DNA of 36,368 nucleotides from Actinomycetes bacterium (GTDB taxonomy: Bacteria > Actinomycetota > Actinomycetes > Mycobacteriales > Jatrophihabitantaceae), in NCBI GenBank assembly GCA_009780925.1, contig WQZC01000004.1, positions 1 to 36,368 on the forward strand, written 5' to 3'. The position numbers and the translations under genes were made by a program. Of the stretch, positions 4,887 through 35,876 are shown piece after piece (the stretch's first letter is position 1; each line of letters starts with the position of its first letter). The notes below the pieces were generated by a model, which searched no databases, was not told the origin of the DNA, and saw only the letters and a program-made list of their open reading frames with translations.

Positions 4887-6119
4887 TCAGGCCGACCACG
4901 CCGCATCGAGCAGGAAGTCCGGCACGCGCGCGTGCCGGACCCCTCGCGTTGATCCGCCGACGACGTCATCGAGCGTCACCACGTACTTCGGGTATGAGTC
5001 GGCAATCGCCAACAGCGGGGCGTATTCGCGTTGCCGGGTCGCCGGGTCCAAGATCGACGCGGACACTTGCACGTAGACGCGCTCGTCTCGGCGCTGAGCC
5101 ACGAAATCAATCTCCGCGGCGCCCACTTTTCCAATGGACACCTCGTAGCCCCGGCGCACCAGCTCCGCGTGCACAATGTTTTCCAGGATTCCCGGCAACC
5201 GAGTCATGGAGGGACCGAGGATCGCGTTCACCATGCCGTGATCGCCGCAGTAATACTTCTCCATCGTCGCCAGGTGCGCGCGCCCGCGAAGGTCGAACCG
5301 CCGCACCCGGCGCAATATGTAGGCGTCGGTCATCGCCTGAAGGTAGTCAGCCACTGTCTGGTGCCCGACCGACATTGACTCGGATCTCAGGAAATCGGAA
5401 ACCCGCCGCGCCGAGAAGATGTTGCCGACGTTGTCGAGGGCATACCGAGCGACCCGCTCGAACAACCCCGGCGACCTGATCTGATTACGGCTCACGACGT
5501 CACGCAAGACCGCTGAAGCATAGATATCGGCGACGATTTGGCGGGCCTGCTCGTCAAAGAAATCGGCGGCGAACAGCCCGGGGAACCCGCCGCGGGCCTG
5601 GAACTTGGTGAACAGGTCTCGTGTGCTGAGCCCGGCTCCGTGCCCCGTCTCCTGGGCGAAGCGCACGAACTCCCCGAAACTCAGTGTCGAGACCTCTATG
5701 CTCACATATCGGCCGGCGATGTATGTCGCCAGCTCCGAAGCCAACAGGCGGGAATTCGAGCCGGTCAGGTAGAGGTCGACCCGGCCGGACGCCAGCAACG
5801 AGTTGACCACCTTCTCCCACTCGACCACTTCTTGGATCTCATCGAGCAGGACGTACAGCGTTCCGCCGTCGCTGGGCACGCGCTCGGCAAGGTAGGCGTG
5901 CAAGACCTGCGGGACGCGCAGGTGCGCGTTGCGCAGGTCGTCGAAGTCCAGGTGCACGATCCGCTCCCCCGGCACCCCCCGGCTGGACAAGCGCTCACGC
6001 AGCAGCCGGAGCAGCACCGACTTGCCGCAGCGGCGGATCCCGGTGAGCACTTTGGCGAATGGCGTGTCGACATACCCAGCCAGCCGATCGGTGTAGAGCG
6101 GGCGATCGAGGTATCGCAT
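4887..6119 (-). CDS. AAA-family ATPase with DUF4143-like C-terminus
   Basis: MRYLDRPLYTDRLAGYVDTPFAKVLTGIRRCGKSVLLRLL (Walker A), then YVLLDEIQEVVEWEKVVNSLL (Walker B) and LTGSNSRLLASELATYIAGRYVSIEV. C-terminal AEIDFVAQRRDERVYVQVS. Confidence 0.9.
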   Translation of the reverse strand: MRYLDRPLYTDRLAGYVDTPFAKVLTGIRRCGKSVLLRLLRERLSSRGVPGERIVHLDFDDLRNAHLRVPQVLHAYLAERVPSDGGTLYVLLDEIQEVVEWEKVVNSLLASGRVDLYLTGSNSRLLASELATYIAGRYVSIEVSTLSFGEFVRFAQETGHGAGLSTRDLFTKFQARGGFPGLFAADFFDEQARQIVADIYASAVLRDVVSRNQIRSPGLFERVARYALDNVGNIFSARRVSDFLRSESMSVGHQTVADYLQAMTDAYILRRVRRFDLRGRAHLATMEKYYCGDHGMVNAILGPSMTRLPGILENIVHAELVRRGYEVSIGKVGAAEIDFVAQRRDERVYVQVSASILDPATRQREYAPLLAIADSYPKYVVTLDDVVGGSTRGVRHARVPDFLLDAAWSA

Positions 6120-23165: not shown

Positions 23166-23242
23166 GCCCCTGTATCCCAACTGGCAGAGGAAGCGGATTC
23201 AAAACCCGCCCAGTGAGGGTTCGACTCCCTCCGGGGGTACCA
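23166..23242 (+). tRNA. tRNA with CAA anticodon (nominally Leu) but short variable loop; 3' CCA encoded; integration-site candidate
   Basis: Acceptor GCCCCTG/CGGGGGT (G-U pairs allowed), anticodon arm GCGGA-TTCAAAA-CCCGC, T-arm GAGGG-TTCGACT-CCCTC, then ACCA. Confidence 0.8.
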
Positions 23243-25241
23243 TAGCCGCCTTACTCGAACTCTGGTCAAGATCGATTTGGCGTAGTGGGACGCCGGCCAG
23301 GGCGGTAATTTCTCGGGTTGTTTGTCCGGGAATATAGGCGTTTTCGGGGCCAGTTGCCGCGATGGGCGCGGTGTGGCCCAGCCCCGGGGTGAGGGTCGTT
23401 TGGCCTCGGTGGAGGCCGGTTTCGGGACCGACAGCGGCTTGTGGGGCCGGATTTGGCGTGGCGGTTCGACTAAGTTTCGCCGAGGTATCGCGGTTGGCCA
23501 GGCTGTCCGGTTCGGCTATTTGCCTTCTTTGTCCGTTAGTGCCTGTCCAGGCTGTTTGTGCCGGTTCCTCGCTTGTAGCGTGGGCGGTAGCTGCGGCCAG
23601 GATGGTGGTTTCAAGGTCTTTGAGCTGCTGGAGCCCGTCGGCGTAGACGGCTTCGGCGATGGCGGGTTCTTTTGTGTCGGGTTCGAGGTGGATGTAGATC
23701 TTGCTGAAGATAGCGGCGTTGAGTTGCTTCTTAGCTTGTTCTGGAGCGAGTGGATGGTTGTACCAGGCCGCGGGGTTCTCCAGGAACTTGAGGGCTTCGC
23801 GCAAGTTGACCGCGCCTTGGTTTATGTCGCCGGGCATGGAGATCAACTGGCGTTCGACGCCGTCGCGTTCGCTCTGGATCTGGGCGAGCTTGTCCCGAAT
23901 CGCATCGGCGGGCACGGTGCCGTCCAGGGCCAGATCTATTAGCCGTTGCTCTTGTTGTTCCAGCCTGGCGAGTTGGTTTTCGGCTTGCTGACGGGCGAGA
24001 ACATCGGACGCGGCAAAGTCGGCCAGAATCTGGTCGACGGCTTGATTCATGGCGACGACGAACTCGGCCGTGAAGCCGACGTGCCGGTAGTACCGGGCCA
24101 GCGCGGTCTCGATGAGTTCCACGCCGATGTACGGGACGTGCAGATGCGGCTGATCTTCGAAGGTGCGGCCATTGCAGAAGTAGTGCCAATAATACTGTTG
24201 TTTGCCTTTGGTGTGGTTGAGGATCATGCGACGTTCCAGGCCCTGGTCGTGGCACTGGCCGCACCAGAGCATGCCTTTGAGTAGGTGGTCGTGGATGCGT
24301 CGGCGGGTTCCGGTGACGCCCCGGGTGGCGGTGGCGGCCTGGACAGCGTCGAAGAGTTCACGGTCGATCAGCGGCTGGTGCCGGCCGGGGTACAGCTCGC
24401 CTTTGTAGGTGATGTAGCCGAGGTAGTAGGGGTCGCGTAACAGGTTGGCCATCGTGGAATCGGCCAGCGGCCTGGCGGGCCGGTTGCTGGTCGGTCGGGA
24501 CACGAACCCACGTTCTCCCAGGGTGCGGCAGATGTCGTTCAGGGTTGCCCCGTCGCGATACATCTCGAAGGCCGGTTTGATGAACTGGGCACGCTCCGGG
24601 TCAAGGGCGACGGTGCGGATCTCGTGGCCGTTGACCAGTTCACGAACGTTCAAATAGCCGATGGGTGCGCGGCCGAGGGTGCCGCCGTTTTTGGCTTTCT
24701 CGCCCATCTTGTAGGCGATGTCCTGGCCGTCTTGCTGGGAGCGGAACTGGGCCATCGCCGACAGCACGCCTTGCATGAACTGGCCCTCGGGAGTGGCGTC
24801 GATCGGTTCGGTCGCTGAGACCAGGCTGACTCCCCGGCGGCGGAACTGGTCCATCACCAGCGCCTCGTCGATGCGGTTGCGGGCCAGCCGGGACAGTTTG
24901 TGGACGATGACGTGACTGACATCTTTGTCGGTTTTGATGCGGGCCAGCATTTTCTGGAACTCGAGGCGATGTTCGGTCTCCCGTCCGGACCGGCCGGGTT
25001 CGACATACTCCCCCACGACTTCCAGGCCGAGTTGTTCGGCTTTACGCAAGCAGGATTTGCGTTGGGCGGGCAGACTGATGCCTTCGGGGTCATAGTCAGT
25101 GTGTAACTGTTTTGGGTCCGACACCCGCAGGTAGAGCACCGCCCTGGCCGTCGCCGTCGGTGCCGGGGGCTTGCGGACGCTGTTTCCACCCGCGTTGTGT
25201 ACGTGTCGGATGGCTGGTTTGGCTGGCAACACGGTCGTCAT
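23199..25241 (-). CDS. large serine recombinase/integrase with C-terminus encoded across the tRNA 3' half
   Basis: Catalytic domain VLYLRVSDPKQ...VIVHKLSRLARNR. Recombinase domain GRAPIGYLNV...DSTMANLLRDPYYLGYITYKGELYPG. Zinc ribbon GMLWCGQCHDQG...YFCNG, coiled coil. RBS CCGAAAGGAAACACTGATG. Tail MVPPEGVEPSLGGF* is antisense tRNA. Confidence 0.95.
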   Translation of the reverse strand: MTTVLPAKPAIRHVHNAGGNSVRKPPAPTATARAVLYLRVSDPKQLHTDYDPEGISLPAQRKSCLRKAEQLGLEVVGEYVEPGRSGRETEHRLEFQKMLARIKTDKDVSHVIVHKLSRLARNRIDEALVMDQFRRRGVSLVSATEPIDATPEGQFMQGVLSAMAQFRSQQDGQDIAYKMGEKAKNGGTLGRAPIGYLNVRELVNGHEIRTVALDPERAQFIKPAFEMYRDGATLNDICRTLGERGFVSRPTSNRPARPLADSTMANLLRDPYYLGYITYKGELYPGRHQPLIDRELFDAVQAATATRGVTGTRRRIHDHLLKGMLWCGQCHDQGLERRMILNHTKGKQQYYWHYFCNGRTFEDQPHLHVPYIGVELIETALARYYRHVGFTAEFVVAMNQAVDQILADFAASDVLARQQAENQLARLEQQEQRLIDLALDGTVPADAIRDKLAQIQSERDGVERQLISMPGDINQGAVNLREALKFLENPAAWYNHPLAPEQAKKQLNAAIFSKIYIHLEPDTKEPAIAEAVYADGLQQLKDLETTILAAATAHATSEEPAQTAWTGTNGQRRQIAEPDSLANRDTSAKLSRTATPNPAPQAAVGPETGLHRGQTTLTPGLGHTAPIAATGPENAYIPGQTTREITALAGVPLRQIDLDQSSSKAAMVPPEGVEPSLGGF

Positions 25242-25286
25242 CAGTGTTTCCTTTCGGTCGGTCGGTTCCTGTCAGGTCGTGGAGAT

Positions 25287-26855
25287 TCAGCTTGTGGTAG
25301 ATCGCGGCAGAAGATTGCACGGGAACGACGCGAGCCGTAGTTTTTCGGTCAGCGCGGCCTGGCATGTCTGTTTCGCGAGGCGTATGCGGGCTGCGGTTTC
25401 GGTGAAGAAGGCGGCGGTCTGGGTTGGTGAGTTGACAGCAGTTCTGACAGCAACAAGCCCGCAAAAGTTGCAGTTAGCGCGGGTTCGCAGGTGTGTGATA
25501 ACTGGGGTCGGAAGGCCGGTTAATAGGGTCGGAATATGCCTCATAACCATCAGGTCGTTGGTTCGAATCCAACCCCCGCCACCAGGATTATCCGGTAGAT
25601 TTACCGCCGTTGGAGGCCCGTCCGCGGGCCTCTTGCCTTTTCTCATGATTAGTGATATGACTTGGTTTTGTTGCAGTTCTGACAGCAATTGTTGCTTGGT
25701 CGGGCTTATTTGTTCTATCGCGCGGCCGGCTAGTGCCTGGTCGATGCTGTCTAACGCGGCAGCCTGGATCGCGGTCGTGCCGTGCTGGTAGACCTGCTTG
25801 GTGGTCTGGATATCCGCGTGTCCGAGGATGGCTTGAATGTCCCGGTCTGGGACGCCGAGGTCTTTCAGGAACGTGGCGACGCCGTGACGGCCAGAGTGGA
25901 TAGTCGCTAGCGGTAGGCCGAGTTTGTTCGACAACAGCCGGAAGGTGCGCAGGAAGTTACGCGGCTCGACCGGCCGGCCGGTAGCGCTTTCCGTGATCAG
26001 CCCGTCCGGCCCAGGTTCAACACCGGTCTGATAGCCCGGGGGAACGCCCCGCTCGGCCGCGAGAGTGAGAAGACGCTCGCGGAAGCCGTGCACGAGCGGC
26101 AGCGGGCGCTCGCCTGCCTTGGTCTTGACTTTCCCGACCCGAAGTTCGCCGCCGGCGCGTTGCACTTGCTGGCGGACGCGGAACTCGTTCTTGCCGAAGT
26201 CCACGTCGCACCAGCGAAGTCCGAGGGCCTCGCCTTCGCGAAGCCCATAGACCCGGGTGAGGTAGTAGGCGACATACCACTGGTGGCTCGCGGCGGCTGC
26301 CAAGAACTGCCGTGTTTGTTCCGGCGTCCATATGGTGACCGGTTTCGGGGTGTAGCCGGGCAGCTCGACCAGCCTGGCCACGTTACGGAACACGATCTCT
26401 CTGCGCATCGCGCAGGTCAACGCCGAAGACAATGTTTCGCGGAACCGGTGGATCACTCGCGGCGAACATCCTTGAGCCTGCAACCGGTAGATAGCTTGCT
26501 GGACATCCTGGACGTTCAGCTTATCGATGCGGGTTCTTCCGAGCAGCGGCCGGATGTGAAGCCGCACCGCCTGCTCGTAATAGTCATAGGTCGACGGACG
26601 GTTGCGCGCCTTAACGGTTTTCTCCATCCAGTCCTCGACGAACTCCCCGACCGTCCAGCCCCGCCTCACGAACGGAAGGTTTCTGCGTTCTTGCTCACGT
26701 ATCTGCGACAGTCTGTCCCGTGCCTCTACCTGGGAATGAGCCAGCACGGCCTTCCGTACTCGCGCCCCGTCGGGCAGGGTCACGAAGACCTGGGCACACC
26801 AGCGGCCATCTTTACGCTGGAAGATGGTGCCCTCGCCTCGAGATCTACGCGACAT
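25287..26855 (-). CDS. tyrosine recombinase/integrase whose ORF reads through a tRNA-like att core
   Basis: SRGEGTIFQRKDGRWCAQV, YGLREGEALGLRWCDVDF, HSGRHGVATFLKDLG, ILGHADIQTTKQVYQHGT (R, HxxR, LGH, Y). Tail NPGGGGWIRTNDLMVMRHIP is antisense of a tRNA 3' half. Confidence 0.93.
   Translation of the reverse strand: MSRRSRGEGTIFQRKDGRWCAQVFVTLPDGARVRKAVLAHSQVEARDRLSQIREQERRNLPFVRRGWTVGEFVEDWMEKTVKARNRPSTYDYYEQAVRLHIRPLLGRTRIDKLNVQDVQQAIYRLQAQGCSPRVIHRFRETLSSALTCAMRREIVFRNVARLVELPGYTPKPVTIWTPEQTRQFLAAAASHQWYVAYYLTRVYGLREGEALGLRWCDVDFGKNEFRVRQQVQRAGGELRVGKVKTKAGERPLPLVHGFRERLLTLAAERGVPPGYQTGVEPGPDGLITESATGRPVEPRNFLRTFRLLSNKLGLPLATIHSGRHGVATFLKDLGVPDRDIQAILGHADIQTTKQVYQHGTTAIQAAALDSIDQALAGRAIEQISPTKQQLLSELQQNQVISLIMRKGKRPADGPPTAVNLPDNPGGGGWIRTNDLMVMRHIPTLLTGLPTPVITHLRTRANCNFCGLVAVRTAVNSPTQTAAFFTETAARIRLAKQTCQAALTEKLRLASFPCNLLPRSTTS
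25540..25584 (+). other. tRNA-Met-like 3' half (anticodon loop to CCA), probable att core of the tyrosine integrase
   Basis: CTCATAACCATCAGGTC-GTTGG-TTCGAAT-CCAAC-CCCCGCC-ACCA. T-arm is perfect; no matching GGCGGGG 5' acceptor strand was found upstream. Confidence 0.8.
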
Positions 26856-27084
26856 GGCCGCCCCCGTACTGGATCGGGTCACGTCGCGACTCGATAAATG
26901 CTTGGAAATCCGCGACCGGGATCAGCCGGCGCGACCCGATCCGGATCGAGCCGAGTTGGCGTTCCCGTAGTAACTTGTAGATCGTCCACTGGCTGGTCTT
27001 CAACAATTCAGCCGTCTCCGGCACCGTCAACACGGCCGCATGGCCGAGTTTGGCTGTGATAGTTTCTCTTCGTTTTGGATTCAT
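26845..27084 (-). CDS. MerR/HTH_17-type excisionase/DNA-binding protein
   Basis: LTVPETAELLKTSQWTIYKLLRERQLGSIRIGSRRLIPVADFQAFIESRRD. SD AAGGAGGACGAATG. Stop overlaps the integrase start. Confidence 0.92.
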   Translation of the reverse strand: MNPKRRETITAKLGHAAVLTVPETAELLKTSQWTIYKLLRERQLGSIRIGSRRLIPVADFQAFIESRRDPIQYGGGHVA

Positions 27085-27184
27085 TCGTCCTCCTTCCCAC
27101 CACATTCACATATACTCATCTGCAATACTCTTCTACTATTCACACCAGAATGTCGGCCGTTTCGGGCGTATAATTGGCATTACC

Positions 27185-27714: not shown

Positions 27715-28365
27715 TCAGTGAAAAACATAGACCGAGCCGTGACCACTGTCGGCGAAGTAGATATCGCCGTCACCTATCATGTTGCGGACCATTGCGGCGT
27801 AGTCGATGGTGATGTAGGGAGCAAGCGACCCACCGGCTTTCTTTATAGCGGCTTCGAGGCCTGGGCCAGCTATCATCTTTCGGGCGTAGTCTTCGGCACT
27901 ATCGTATTCGCTCGCGTAGGCGCTGGTGAACTGGTCTGTGGCATCTTCAGCGGTGGCGCTCTCGATGCCAACGATGTCGGCCCAGACTATGAATGGCTGG
28001 CCCTGCTGGCCAATCAGGCGAGCCAGAGCGGTAACGGTAGCGATGCTTTCGTTCTCGTCGAGATTGAGGCCGCCGAAGCTGTCGTAGTCGTGGATGGCGA
28101 ATTCTTCAGCTGGTTCGCCGGTGCCGCGGGTGGTCGGTGAGTTGTCCAGCATGGCTTGGATGGCGGTCTGGACTTCGGTTTCGTCTTGGGTGGCGTCGAT
28201 CCAGGCGCCGTGCAGGATGCCGTTGTTGTAGTCCGACAGTGAGGCGACGTAGATAGCCGGCTGGCCGGCTGGTTCGCGGTCTTGCTCTTGCTGGCTAACG
28301 CCAGACGATGTTTCGCTGGCGGCCGGTTCTGGTGCCAGCTGGATGTAGTTGACTCTTTCTGTCAT
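27715..28365 (-). CDS. ardA: antirestriction protein ArdA
   Basis: AIYVASLSDYNNGILHGAWIDAT, EEFAIHDYDSFGGLNLDENESIATVTALARLI, FTSAYASEYDSAEDYARKMI. SD GAAAGGAGAATCTATG. Confidence 0.92.
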   Translation of the reverse strand: MTERVNYIQLAPEPAASETSSGVSQQEQDREPAGQPAIYVASLSDYNNGILHGAWIDATQDETEVQTAIQAMLDNSPTTRGTGEPAEEFAIHDYDSFGGLNLDENESIATVTALARLIGQQGQPFIVWADIVGIESATAEDATDQFTSAYASEYDSAEDYARKMIAGPGLEAAIKKAGGSLAPYITIDYAAMVRNMIGDGDIYFADSGHGSVYVFH

Positions 28366-28396
28366 AGATTCTCCTTTCGTCCGTTGTAGCTTTTCT

Positions 28397-28447
28397 GGGA
28401 GCCGCCTCGGCAGAGACTGGGATGTCTCAATGCCGGGGCGGGCTCCC
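28397..28447. repeat. intercistronic inverted repeat between the RHH gene and ardA
   Basis: GGGAGCCGCCTCGGCA ... TGCCGGGGCGGGCTCCC (one mismatch, one bulge). Confidence 0.85.
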
Positions 28448-28465
28448 GTCAGCAGGACTAGGCGG

Positions 28466-28786
28466 CTAAGCCTGTTTGGCCTGCCGGGCTGCTGGCTTGC
28501 TGGTCGCGGCAGCACTTGTGGTGCTGGATGCGGTGGCACCGAGGACGGCGGCGATGGCGTTGCGTTTGGTGGCAGCGTCGCGTTCGATCTCGGCTTTCAC
28601 TTGCTCGGCGCGGGCCAGGATGTTCGGGTCGGTCTTGGAAGTGGTGATCCACTGTTCCAGGGCAATCCGGCATTCCTCGGTCACGCTGCGGTCGTTGAGC
28701 TGGGCCAGGACTTCGAGCTGGGCTCGTAGGTTGTCGTCCACCCGCAGGCTCAGCACCCGGTAGGCGTTTTGCGTGTCCTCACTCAT
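28466..28786 (-). CDS. ribbon-helix-helix-like DNA-binding protein
   Basis: RVLSLRVDDNLRAQLEVLAQLNDRSVTEECRIALEQWI with a charged C-terminal tail. SD AAGGAGGGTCCACACCAATG. Confidence 0.72.
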   Translation of the reverse strand: MSEDTQNAYRVLSLRVDDNLRAQLEVLAQLNDRSVTEECRIALEQWITTSKTDPNILARAEQVKAEIERDAATKRNAIAAVLGATASSTTSAAATSKPAARQAKQA

Positions 28787-29643: not shown

Positions 29644-30690
29644 CTAACTGGTGTTGCTTGGTGTTACCGGTGTCCGGTTTCCCGTGATGAACCTCTCCAG
29701 GGTCAGCGCGGCATGGCTGTCGGCGTCGAGGCTGCTGTCGTGGGTAAACAGTTGGTTGAGCCGGTCGGCGCGGGTTTGGTCCGGCGCAATCCAGGCCACG
29801 CGCGGGAAGGTGCGTTGGCTGGCTTGTTCGATGCCGGTGCGCCGGTATGCCTCGTATACGGCGGTCTTTCGGCTGACCGCGCTCAGCGATTCGCTGCCCA
29901 TGTCGATCTCAACGAACCACAACCGTTCGAACTGCGATCCGGTCGCGGCAGTGCGGGCGAAACCGTCTGGTTTCAAGGTCTCGGCCGCGCCGTAGCGGCC
30001 CAGGAAGGACCGCCAGCAGCCCGGTTCGGGAGTAAAGCTGAGCAGATCAAGTCGGCCAGCCTGCCAGCTCTCGTGGAGCTGGACGAAGGTTTCGACCACG
30101 GCCAGCCGGTGGTTCAGCGTGAACAAGGCGGGCGGCTGGCCGGGGCGCACATGCGGCCGGGTTGGCAGTGGCGTCGACAACTGCAGGCCGAACCAGCCGC
30201 TGCCTGGTGACGGGACGGCAGACAACCGCCAGCCGCCGGGGGTGAGGAACCAGACCCCTGGGGTGGATCCGCCGGTGATGCCGCCGACCCGGCGCGGCAG
30301 ATGATCGATCAGACCGGTCTCACGTAACCGGCGGAGCACCTTCTTGGCCGCTTGCGCCTGCCCGATCACGCTGGCCCGGTCAGCGAAGACTACCCGCTGC
30401 AACTGGGCCGTGGTCGCGGTCTGGAAGACCGCTAGCAGTCTGAGCACGTCACGGTGCCGCTCGGTCAATGCCAGATTGATGCGGTTCAGCTGATTGCGGC
30501 TCAGCCGCAGGGTCGCCGCCGTCCCCATGCCCGCAGCCCGGTTTCCCGCTGCCGGCCCGGCACCCGCCGCCACCGGCGCGGAAGGTAAGGCACTGCCAGA
30601 CAGGCAGTGTTTCTCGTCGCTTAACCCACCAGATTCGCCACCGTCTGGGGGCTTCATCTGGCTGGCGGCGGTCCTACCGATGGTCCTCAT
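29644..30690 (-). CDS. replication-relaxation family protein
   Basis: LTERHRDVLRLLAVFQTATTAQLQRVVFADRASVIGQAQAAKKVLRRLRETGLIDHLPRRVGG...GVWFLTPGGWRL. ATGA overlap with the upstream ATPase. Confidence 0.82.
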   Translation of the reverse strand: MRTIGRTAASQMKPPDGGESGGLSDEKHCLSGSALPSAPVAAGAGPAAGNRAAGMGTAATLRLSRNQLNRINLALTERHRDVLRLLAVFQTATTAQLQRVVFADRASVIGQAQAAKKVLRRLRETGLIDHLPRRVGGITGGSTPGVWFLTPGGWRLSAVPSPGSGWFGLQLSTPLPTRPHVRPGQPPALFTLNHRLAVVETFVQLHESWQAGRLDLLSFTPEPGCWRSFLGRYGAAETLKPDGFARTAATGSQFERLWFVEIDMGSESLSAVSRKTAVYEAYRRTGIEQASQRTFPRVAWIAPDQTRADRLNQLFTHDSSLDADSHAALTLERFITGNRTPVTPSNTS

Positions 30691-32990
30691 GGCACCCTCC
30701 GCCGCAGCCCCACCTCAGTCGCTGCCCCGGCCGGTTCGGCCAGGGGAGTCGAGACCGCGAGTGCGCCGTCTGACGTGTCGGCCGGCAGTCCGCTCCAGGA
30801 CGCGAAGTCGGCCTCGATCTGCTCAGCTGGCACGCCGTAGCGGCGGGCTGACTGCTCACGCAGCTGGCGGGCACCGGCGGTAACCGGCGGCGGGGGCAGG
30901 GTGCGGCCGGATGCGAACGGCTGGGTCTGGCCGTGATCGAACAGGCTGGCGTAAACCTCGAACTGGCCCAGCGCCATGAAGTCTTCCGGTGTGAGGTCTT
31001 CCCCACCGCTGCTGCCGGGACGACGGACCGCGCTCTTGGCGAAGACGGTGGCGTCGTCACGGCCGGTCTGGAACACCACCCGGGAGCGGCAGTTGGTCAG
31101 TACCGCCTCCCGCACAGTGTCGCCGAGCTGGCCGAGGTACTGGTTGGCCAGCGTCCAACCCACCGCGTAGGAACGCGAAGTAGCCAGGGCATCGGCAACG
31201 TCTCCGCCTAGACGCAGGAACTTCTGCACCTCATCCAGATAGATCGATACCGGCGTGCGCTGCTCGGGCGGGATCGCGGCCTGTTCCCGCGCGGCGTCCC
31301 ACAGTTGGCTGGTGACCAGCGAACCGATTAGCTCGCCGCCTTCATCGCCCAGCGTGTGGACCGGCAGTGGTACCAGCAGAATCCGGTGCTTGGTGAAGAC
31401 ATCCCGCACGTCGAACTTCGGCCTGGCCTGACCGAGGACCCGGCGAATCGAAGGTTTCATGACGACCGCCCGCAGCTTGTTCATCAGCGGCGCGGTAATC
31501 GTGGCGCGGACCGGGTCTTTGTAGGATTCGTAATCGGCCCAGAACCGCCCCAACTCGATATCCCCCGCCACCCGCGCGACCCGGGGCCGACGGAACGCCG
31601 GATTGGTCAATAGCGTCGGGATCTGGACCAGCGATGCGTCCGGCTGGGCCGCCAGCGTCAGCAGGCAGGCGTTCAGAATGTCTGCGCTGCGCACGCCCAG
31701 GCTGTCGCCAAACATTTCGCGAAAGATCGAGTACACCGAGTCGGCTCTCAGTTCCGGTGACCGCGCCGCCCCACCGACGGCGGTGTTGAGCGGATTCAGC
31801 CCGACGATGCCGTCAGCCCGCAGCGGGTCGAACACCACCACGTCATCAGCGCGCGACGCCGGAATTCGTTCCAGGATGTCTTGCACCAGATCGCCCTTCG
31901 GCTCGATCACCACCACGCCGCGACCGGCCGCGATGTCGTGCAGCACCAGGTTTAACGCCAGCACGCTCTTACCGCCGCCGGTCGGGCCGACCAGATAGGT
32001 GTGCCGCAGCAGCGCGGCAGTCGAGCGCAGCAACGGCGCCCCGGCGCAGGCCGGCGCGGTTGCCACCCCGACCAGCGCGTGATCGGCATCCGGCCGGCCT
32101 GGTTTGCCGGGCACGGGCAGCGAACGCGGGTGCAGCGGCGTCAAGCCGGGCAGCTCGTGTTCCCCAACCGGAACGACAGCCAGCGCGGCAGCTTCGGCAA
32201 TATTCAGCCGCAGTGCCGGCCGGCCGGGCAAGGTGACTTCCTGGCCAGCGCCAAACGCTGCCGGCGTGTCCGGACGCAGACGCAACGACAGGCCGGGTGA
32301 TTCCAGACGCTTGAGCGCCCCCAGCAGCCACATCGCCAATTGCTGCCGCCGGGCCGGGCTGTCCGCGCTGACCCCCAGCCGTGCCGCGGCGGTGAATCCC
32401 GGCAAAGAGATCTTGGCCGCCAACGCGCCCCGGGCTTCCGCGTCAAGCTTGCCTTTCGGGTTGCCGGCCGGATAACCGACCAGAGCCCGGCGTAGCGGCA
32501 CCGGTGCGCTGGCGTCGCTGCCGACCACTGACCCGGCCAGTCGAGGACCGAGCAGCAGTTGCAGCGCCAGTTCCTCGCCGGGTCGCCGCGCCTGGTCCAG
32601 CGCGGCCAGGATCGCGGCGCTGCTGATCTCCAGCACGCTGGTATCCAGCGGCCGGCTCTTAGTCGAGATAGCCAGCCGGCGGACTGTGGCCAGCGGCGGT
32701 CTGGCCAACACCGGATCGGTCTTCAACGCCGTGACCCCGAGCAGCCGCACCACCCCAGCCAGCTTCGCCGACTCAACACCCAGCAGGTAACGCGTCCGGC
32801 GAACCGGCGCTCCGGTCACCGCTGACGGATCCGGCTCGACGCGGCGGCGGACCTCCAGCACAACTAACGGCGCCGCCGGATCATCGGCCAGGGCGCGAAA
32901 ACTCTGCGTCGCCGCCTCGGCAGTCAGCGGCCGCGGGAAGACGAGCTCCCGCCAAGCTAACACGTGTGGCTTCGTGAATAGTTCAAACAT
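30687..32990 (-). CDS. conjugative DNA-transfer/TraG-VirD4-HerA-like ATPase
   Basis: HTYLVGPTGGGKSVLALNLVLHDIAAGRGVVVIEPKGDLVQDILERIP (Walker A), DDVVVFDPL, PVSIYLDEVQKFLRLGGDVADALATSRSYAVGWTLANQYLGQL. Confidence 0.88.
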   Translation of the reverse strand: MFELFTKPHVLAWRELVFPRPLTAEAATQSFRALADDPAAPLVVLEVRRRVEPDPSAVTGAPVRRTRYLLGVESAKLAGVVRLLGVTALKTDPVLARPPLATVRRLAISTKSRPLDTSVLEISSAAILAALDQARRPGEELALQLLLGPRLAGSVVGSDASAPVPLRRALVGYPAGNPKGKLDAEARGALAAKISLPGFTAAARLGVSADSPARRQQLAMWLLGALKRLESPGLSLRLRPDTPAAFGAGQEVTLPGRPALRLNIAEAAALAVVPVGEHELPGLTPLHPRSLPVPGKPGRPDADHALVGVATAPACAGAPLLRSTAALLRHTYLVGPTGGGKSVLALNLVLHDIAAGRGVVVIEPKGDLVQDILERIPASRADDVVVFDPLRADGIVGLNPLNTAVGGAARSPELRADSVYSIFREMFGDSLGVRSADILNACLLTLAAQPDASLVQIPTLLTNPAFRRPRVARVAGDIELGRFWADYESYKDPVRATITAPLMNKLRAVVMKPSIRRVLGQARPKFDVRDVFTKHRILLVPLPVHTLGDEGGELIGSLVTSQLWDAAREQAAIPPEQRTPVSIYLDEVQKFLRLGGDVADALATSRSYAVGWTLANQYLGQLGDTVREAVLTNCRSRVVFQTGRDDATVFAKSAVRRPGSSGGEDLTPEDFMALGQFEVYASLFDHGQTQPFASGRTLPPPPVTAGARQLREQSARRYGVPAEQIEADFASWSGLPADTSDGALAVSTPLAEPAGAATEVGLRRRVP

Positions 32991-35324: not shown

Positions 35325-35876
35325 TCATTTCGGCGGCCGACCCTTCGCCGAGCCAATGCCGGCGAAAGACAGGTCAGAATCGATCTCATTGCCCCACGCA
35401 TCCCAGCCCCGGCGGGGCCGGCGCGCGAACAATTCGACATACGGGCCGGGTGAGCAGCGCTCAATGATGTCGTAGAGTTCCTCGGGCTTGTGGGAGTGGT
35501 CCTGGCGGATGGCGAACAGCCAGTTCGGCTGATTGCGCACCAGCACCGGCGCTTTACCTTTGGTGGCGAAGATCAGCTGCTCGGTGCAGTTGCGTAGGTA
35601 ATGGCCCAGCCCGAGTCGCGGTTTGAGCCAGGTCAGCAGGCTGCGCGGGGTGAAGCCCCAGGCCCGCACCACCGCATAGGCCTGTTCCAGCGCGGCGTTG
35701 GTGGTCCACAGCCACAGATGCGCGTCCGGCTCGGCGAGGTCAGCGACCGGCAGGGCTGTGATCGCCGCGATGTCCATCAGCGGGTAATGCCGGCTCGCAC
35801 CCCGGTCGCCGGCTTGCTGGATGTCCCAGGGCGGGTCCGCCAGAATCGTGTGGTAACGCTTCGGGCTGCTACTCAT
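35325..35876 (-). CDS. MT-A70-family adenine methyltransferase
   Basis: YHTILADPPWDIQ (DPPW), AHLWLWTTNAALEQAYAVVRAWGFTPRSLLTWLKPRLGLGHYLRNCTEQLIFATKGK, HSHKPEELYDIIERCSPGPYVELFARR. Confidence 0.92.
   Translation of the reverse strand: MSSSPKRYHTILADPPWDIQQAGDRGASRHYPLMDIAAITALPVADLAEPDAHLWLWTTNAALEQAYAVVRAWGFTPRSLLTWLKPRLGLGHYLRNCTEQLIFATKGKAPVLVRNQPNWLFAIRQDHSHKPEELYDIIERCSPGPYVELFARRPRRGWDAWGNEIDSDLSFAGIGSAKGRPPK

Follow-up and report, generated by a model that had tools for sequence, protein, structure and literature searches.

The window, i.e., the whole stretch of DNA analyzed here, is a contig (C4) of 36,368 bp from a 2.69-Mb draft genome that is 79% complete and consists of 313 contigs. 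Gene content and G+C suggest that the host is an actinomycete. The chromosomal flank contains, in order, genes for a DNA polymerase I-like protein (a name based on sequence), a GNAT protein, and an ANTAR response regulator, followed by an intact tRNA-Leu(CAA) gene. The ANTAR regulator gene is matched in most of the relatives searched, with a tRNA-Leu match close behind in many, and in the relative G006, the tRNA-Leu(CAA) site beside this gene is unoccupied. Past tRNA-Leu(CAA), where a mobile element starts, the G+C content drops. The window holds the left end of this element, which runs to the contig end, while its right end lies off the contig. Based on ARAGORN, Pfam, the Rfam tRNA model, and TIGR01764, the order given in a preliminary description of this DNA, i.e., tRNA(CAA), serine recombinase, tRNA-Met-like half, tyrosine integrase, and xis, is correct, as is its statement that both integrase genes face the chromosomal edge (Table 1). 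Genes for a Replic_Relax protein and a coupling protein are present, and the contig ends inside the element before any mating-pair part. When attR was sought, the tRNA-Leu 3' end proved to occur only once in the draft genome; the gene that lies 3' of the tRNA in G006 is here on contig C82, where an unrelated ATPase gene adjoins it and no attR was found.

Table 1. Features at the left end of the mobile element in the window
Feature	Position	Strand	Basis
tRNA-Leu(CAA), intact, target of the serine integrase	23166..23242	+	ARAGORN; conserved position beside ANTAR regulator gene
Probable serine-integrase attL	23218..23261	+	Sequence; same dyad at other LSR junctions; crossover place inferred
attL dyad, T-arm part GGTTCGA	23218-23224
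attL dyad, inverted part TCGAACT	23255-23261
attL dyad, centre at CCA end	23239/23240
Large serine integrase (LSR), 680-aa ORF, last residues antisense to tRNA-Leu	23199..25241	-	Pfam Resolvase and Recombinase
P-arm repeats TGACAGC (at 25433 and 25445) of tyrosine attP	25433..25451	+	Fixed spacing common to relatives
Tyrosine attP core, tRNA-Met(CAT)-like 3' half, anticodon loop to CCA	25540..25584	+	Sequence, Rfam; single copy
P'-arm repeat TGACAGC	25680..25686	+	Arm-repeat comparison with relatives
Tyrosine integrase (Y-int), 531-aa ORF reading through the tRNA half	25287..26882	-	Pfam Phage_integrase and Phage_int_SAM_3
xis-like excisionase	26845..27105	-	HTH_17; TIGR01764 above cut-off
ArdA antirestriction protein	27715..28539	-	Domain search
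Replic_Relax replication-relaxation protein	29644..30690	-	Domain search
VirD4-like coupling ATPase	30687..32990	-	T4SS-DNA_transf and TrwB_AAD_bind above Pfam cut-offs
MT-A70 methyltransferase	35325..35876	-	Domain search

The recombinase encoded next to tRNA-Leu(CAA) is a large serine integrase (LSR), with PF00239 and PF07508 both above their cut-offs. Among the 31 LSRs listed, 26 have a tRNA or tmRNA gene no more than about 260 nt away. On the 3' side of the tRNA, LSR junctions carry the T-arm motif again in inverted form, and the centre of the dyad coincides with the CCA end; the mechanism that we propose for the window is based on the same motif at the probable attL. The ends of the element in G013 yield the attP half-sites GGTTCGAAC and GTTCGAACC flanking a CCACC core; a short core shared by attP and attB, with dyad half-sites, is seen in G013, and the window contig has attL only. 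We suggest that the LSR would read the tRNA T-arm as a half-site and cross over at the CCA end, so that the tRNA would stay whole. In the window, the serine integrase would have inserted the element at the CCA end of tRNA-Leu(CAA); for the relative G013, serine-integrase insertion is shown by an empty site (see below). These observations point to a serine integrase family that inserts exactly at the 3' terminus of numerous tRNA and tmRNA genes while leaving them unbroken, and such integrases may serve as tools. In a separate case, G282, the LSR adjoins a tRNA-Ala 3' half starting at the anticodon loop (stitched region 23600-23720 of G282:C1, L152); this half is perhaps the end of another tyrosine element that was used as a serine target.

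The tRNA-Met-like half between the two integrase genes extends from the anticodon loop CTCATAA through CCA and has no 5' half. ARAGORN called no tRNA at this position; the Rfam tRNA model scored 26.3 bits against a curated cut-off of 29, and the 5' half fails to pair. The preliminary description had read this half as an attP-like site, which is borne out by the missing 5' half together with the presence of both arms; it had named an intact tRNA-Met adjoining the half as evidence against this reading, and none is present. It had also proposed looking for att copies elsewhere, and the core occurs only once in the 2.69-Mb draft genome. As expected of a tRNA-targeting tyrosine integrase, the core is the 3' part of a tRNA and arm sites lie on both sides.

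We gathered homologues of the tyrosine integrase (Y-int) from the order (about 300 genomes) and from the class (395 genomes). In the Y-int tree, the protein of the window falls in a group of 14, the uniting branch of which has modest support (81/53). A tRNA 3' half without a 5' half, starting at or near the anticodon loop, is present in 13 of these 14 (12 scored, plus G592, in which the half is there by inspection), and the cores are mostly of the Lys, Phe, or Met type; the half/core of the fourteenth member, G026c, is degenerate. Outside this group, 16 of 17 homologues adjoin an intact tRNA, which is the ordinary integrated state. In 12 of the 14, TGACRGC repeats, the background frequency of which is 0.7 per kb, are located at about −108 and −95 relative to the core, and in most they recur on its far side; G013 has a variant arm repeat on both sides, and the left repeat pair is shifted by 76 bp in G026b. 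Because both arms are present on one molecule, the attP is unrecombined. The catalytic R-K-H-R-H-Y set (R215, K253, H329, R332, H355, and Y365) is invariant in all 14 proteins. Moreover, the 45-bp cores are 96-100% identical between elements despite an identity of just 46-62% between their Y-ints, arguing that the cores are constrained. Altogether, Y-int, xis, and attP make up a second, unrecombined module with an intact structure.

Two further sites in G026 deserve description. In G026:C3 near 1473021-1473065 (L104, L150), a 76-bp stretch upstream of the attP core resembles a promoter and a tRNA 5' half, which makes this site look like a whole tRNA-like gene, although ARAGORN rejects it. In G026:C4, an intact tRNA-Lys(CTT) with a TCCA end (79584-79660; L106 4584-4660) and a degenerate tRNA half belonging to a Y-int of the group are ~350 bp apart; the best database matches of this tRNA-Lys are phage-encoded tRNAs.

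The pairing of LSR and Y-int is found in at least eleven related elements. The order LSR, tRNA half, Y-int, xis, ArdA, Replic_Relax, and VirD4-like protein is also present in six other genomes, at tRNA-Ala (G222 and G018), tmRNA (G013), and tRNA-Arg (G019 and G008); in G022, the contig ends within the LSR, and in G008, 3.6 kb separate the integrase genes. The G013 element (3422-36535, 33.1 kb) is inserted at the tmRNA 3' end and is delimited by the empty site in G005, as the sequence that follows tmRNA in G005 resumes at 36536; the tyrosine core occurs once, inside the element, at 5324. Dispersal by recombination at each attP, as in a multipartite ICE, is not seen, the tyrosine core being single and unrecombined. 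A dyad search for the ends of the G222, G008, and G282 elements gave no clear match, pairwise tblastx maps were too noisy for use alone, and a search for plasmids using the LSR found nothing.

Five further elements have other arrangements. Both elements of G026 and that of G282 have the LSR and the tyrosine module on one strand, at a distance of 28-37 kb; one of the G026 elements carries the LSR half-site again in inverted form near 32.3 kb, by which the tyrosine module comes to lie just within the opposite end. In G215 and G085, the same kind of Y-int occurs together with a serine recombinase from a different lineage. In the serine integrase tree, the LSRs of the first arrangement form no common group. 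The ungrouped LSRs, the several arrangements, and the other lineages together argue that the pairing was made, or its parts exchanged, more than once. When viral contigs were scanned with the Y-int alignment, one close relative emerged, IMGVR_UViG_3300000114_000627 (L301, 195-3244), a contig of lower G+C content (44%). It encodes a Y-int of 43% identity and, next on that strand, a serine recombinase; repeats are present on both sides, but an apparent tRNA-Trp 5' half lies between the two genes.

In eleven related host genomes, several of which are in 1-4 contigs, each core was found only in its own element; the next best matches are other sequences, mostly tRNAs, and are short or less identical. 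Similarly, no core match above 85% was found in 395 genomes of the class except in the elements. A like search did recover 43-bp tRNA-Ala halves at 98-100% elsewhere, supporting that the core search is sensitive enough. The tRNA-Met of the window's host is absent from its 79% complete assembly, and the result from the eleven hosts applies to the relatives' hosts only. Judged by these comparisons, Y-int probably lacks a usable chromosomal partner in the relatives' hosts. The lack of a matching host tRNA would account for the exclusive finding of the serine-integrated state; among the elements of the Y-int group, we observed no tyrosine-integrated state. When viral contigs were scanned with the cores, there was either no match or mostly matches to other tRNA-Lys genes and to half-tRNA sites. 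The fuller core matches among the records searched include tRNA regions of large phages at 84-91%, well below the 98-100% of ordinary tRNA elements. In G215, seven tRNA genes (Asn, Arg, Ser, Ser, Phe, Pro, and Arg; G215:C40, L252 9700-10295) are packed into a compact array; such an array is unusual in a chromosome, and this one contains no tRNA matching the cores.

We consider it fairly likely that the window contains one integrative (conjugative or mobilizable) element with two complete, independent integration modules; it is integrated by its LSR and carries the second module, which is of the tyrosine type, probably for other hosts. The second module may be kept because it is usable in hosts or replicons with a matching tRNA, while the serine integrase would open hosts without one. 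One of two earlier suggestions, that a tyrosine-integrase ICE gained a serine recombinase and switched its target, is essentially right in that the serine target is now occupied; its notion of an old att left behind needs amendment, as the attP is complete with both arms and is conserved across divergent elements that have several arrangements and LSRs of different lineages.

The main rival is that the tyrosine module is a relic, left over after the switch to the serine integrase and no longer recombining anything. The Y-int group is seen solely in the unrecombined state, the relatives' hosts have no matching tRNA, and the core of G026c is degenerate. Moreover, elements with the same kind of backbone and an LSR, and with no tyrosine integrase detected, are present in G217 and G094, indicating that Y-int is dispensable. 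However, the open frames, the invariant catalytic residues, the fixed arm spacing, and the near identity of cores served by divergent Y-ints all speak against decay, and we regard a relic as unlikely.

A more specific proposal is that a class of actinomycete elements regularly pairs an LSR directed to tRNA ends, for chromosomal residence, with a Y-int whose attB lies outside the host chromosome, in tRNA genes carried by, e.g., large phages, plasmids, or further replicons. If so, the second module would serve to board a vehicle rather than to settle. The failure of the cores to match host tRNAs and their large-phage matches are no more than hints in this direction, and we hold the proposal to be improbable.

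Very improbable, in our assessment, is that Y-int acts within the element family, e.g., in multimer resolution or in the fusion of two elements through their attP sites, with no chromosomal integration. Cores that are common to elements of different host families, and not to elements and hosts, would fit such a role; yet attP × attP recombination is not the usual reaction of tyrosine integrases of this kind, a tRNA 3' half would be needless, and a xis gene accompanies Y-int. We give just as little credence to the second earlier suggestion, that two elements were inserted next to each other, or to a tandem junction. A tandem array would likewise give a 3' half beside an integrase gene, and the LSR of G282 on a tRNA-Ala half might be such a case; however, the collinear arrangement recurs in the relatives as one element, the G013 element is delimited as one by the empty site, and both attP arms are present together. 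Finally, an artefactual join of unrelated pieces between 25240 and 25540, which the preliminary description had named as a possible objection and which a draft in 313 contigs might invite, is hardly credible given the same order in six other genomes, the same spacing of the arm repeats at 25433 and 25445 across the supposed join, and the Y-int frame that is open through the tRNA half to 25287.

The usual view is that a mobile element has a single integrase that determines its target and restricts its hosts. Two unrelated integrases that are repeatedly combined, each having its own attP, in several arrangements and with different serine integrase lineages, would imply that an element may have more than one target available, and dual-integrase elements suggest that mobile DNA is able to retain a spare key to further hosts. 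This raises the question of why a second attachment site is conserved when the host offers no partner. In the open-access literature searched, we found no serine and tyrosine pair with an intact, unrecombined second attP.

Several known systems share parts of this organization. In the sections consulted of the survey by Ghinet et al. (2011, PMC3218068), Mycobacterium AICEs have serine recombinases in a tRNA-Leu gene, a use of tRNA genes that is called rare. Like the element of the window, these are actinomycete elements with a serine recombinase at a tRNA-Leu gene; in contrast, those sections describe no second tyrosine module with an unrecombined attP, such as the window's element has, and transfer here appears VirD4-like rather than FtsK-like. 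An AICE would be expected to encode an FtsK/SpoIIIE-type transfer protein; on the part of the element that the contig covers, the transfer ATPase has VirD4-like domains. The same sections describe the Frankia AICE Fcci3390, in which two different int genes are separated by an att site, as here; however, Fcci3390 has two tyrosine integrases with an attL between their genes (PMC3218068), whereas the window has a serine and a tyrosine integrase and an unrecombined attP. Finally, the tripartite ICEs of Mesorhizobium also have several integrases per element, each with its own attP, but their three tyrosine recombinases all act and the element is dispersed into three regions (PMC5882170), whereas the second attP of the window's element is unrecombined.

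The catalytic part of the window's Y-int stops near 25720, and the C-terminal tails of both integrase ORFs (23199-23260 and 25287-25620) are translations of antisense tRNA (PPEGVEPSLGGF and GGGGWIRTNDLMVMR, respectively). Such antisense-tRNA tails are a likely source of false protein annotation.
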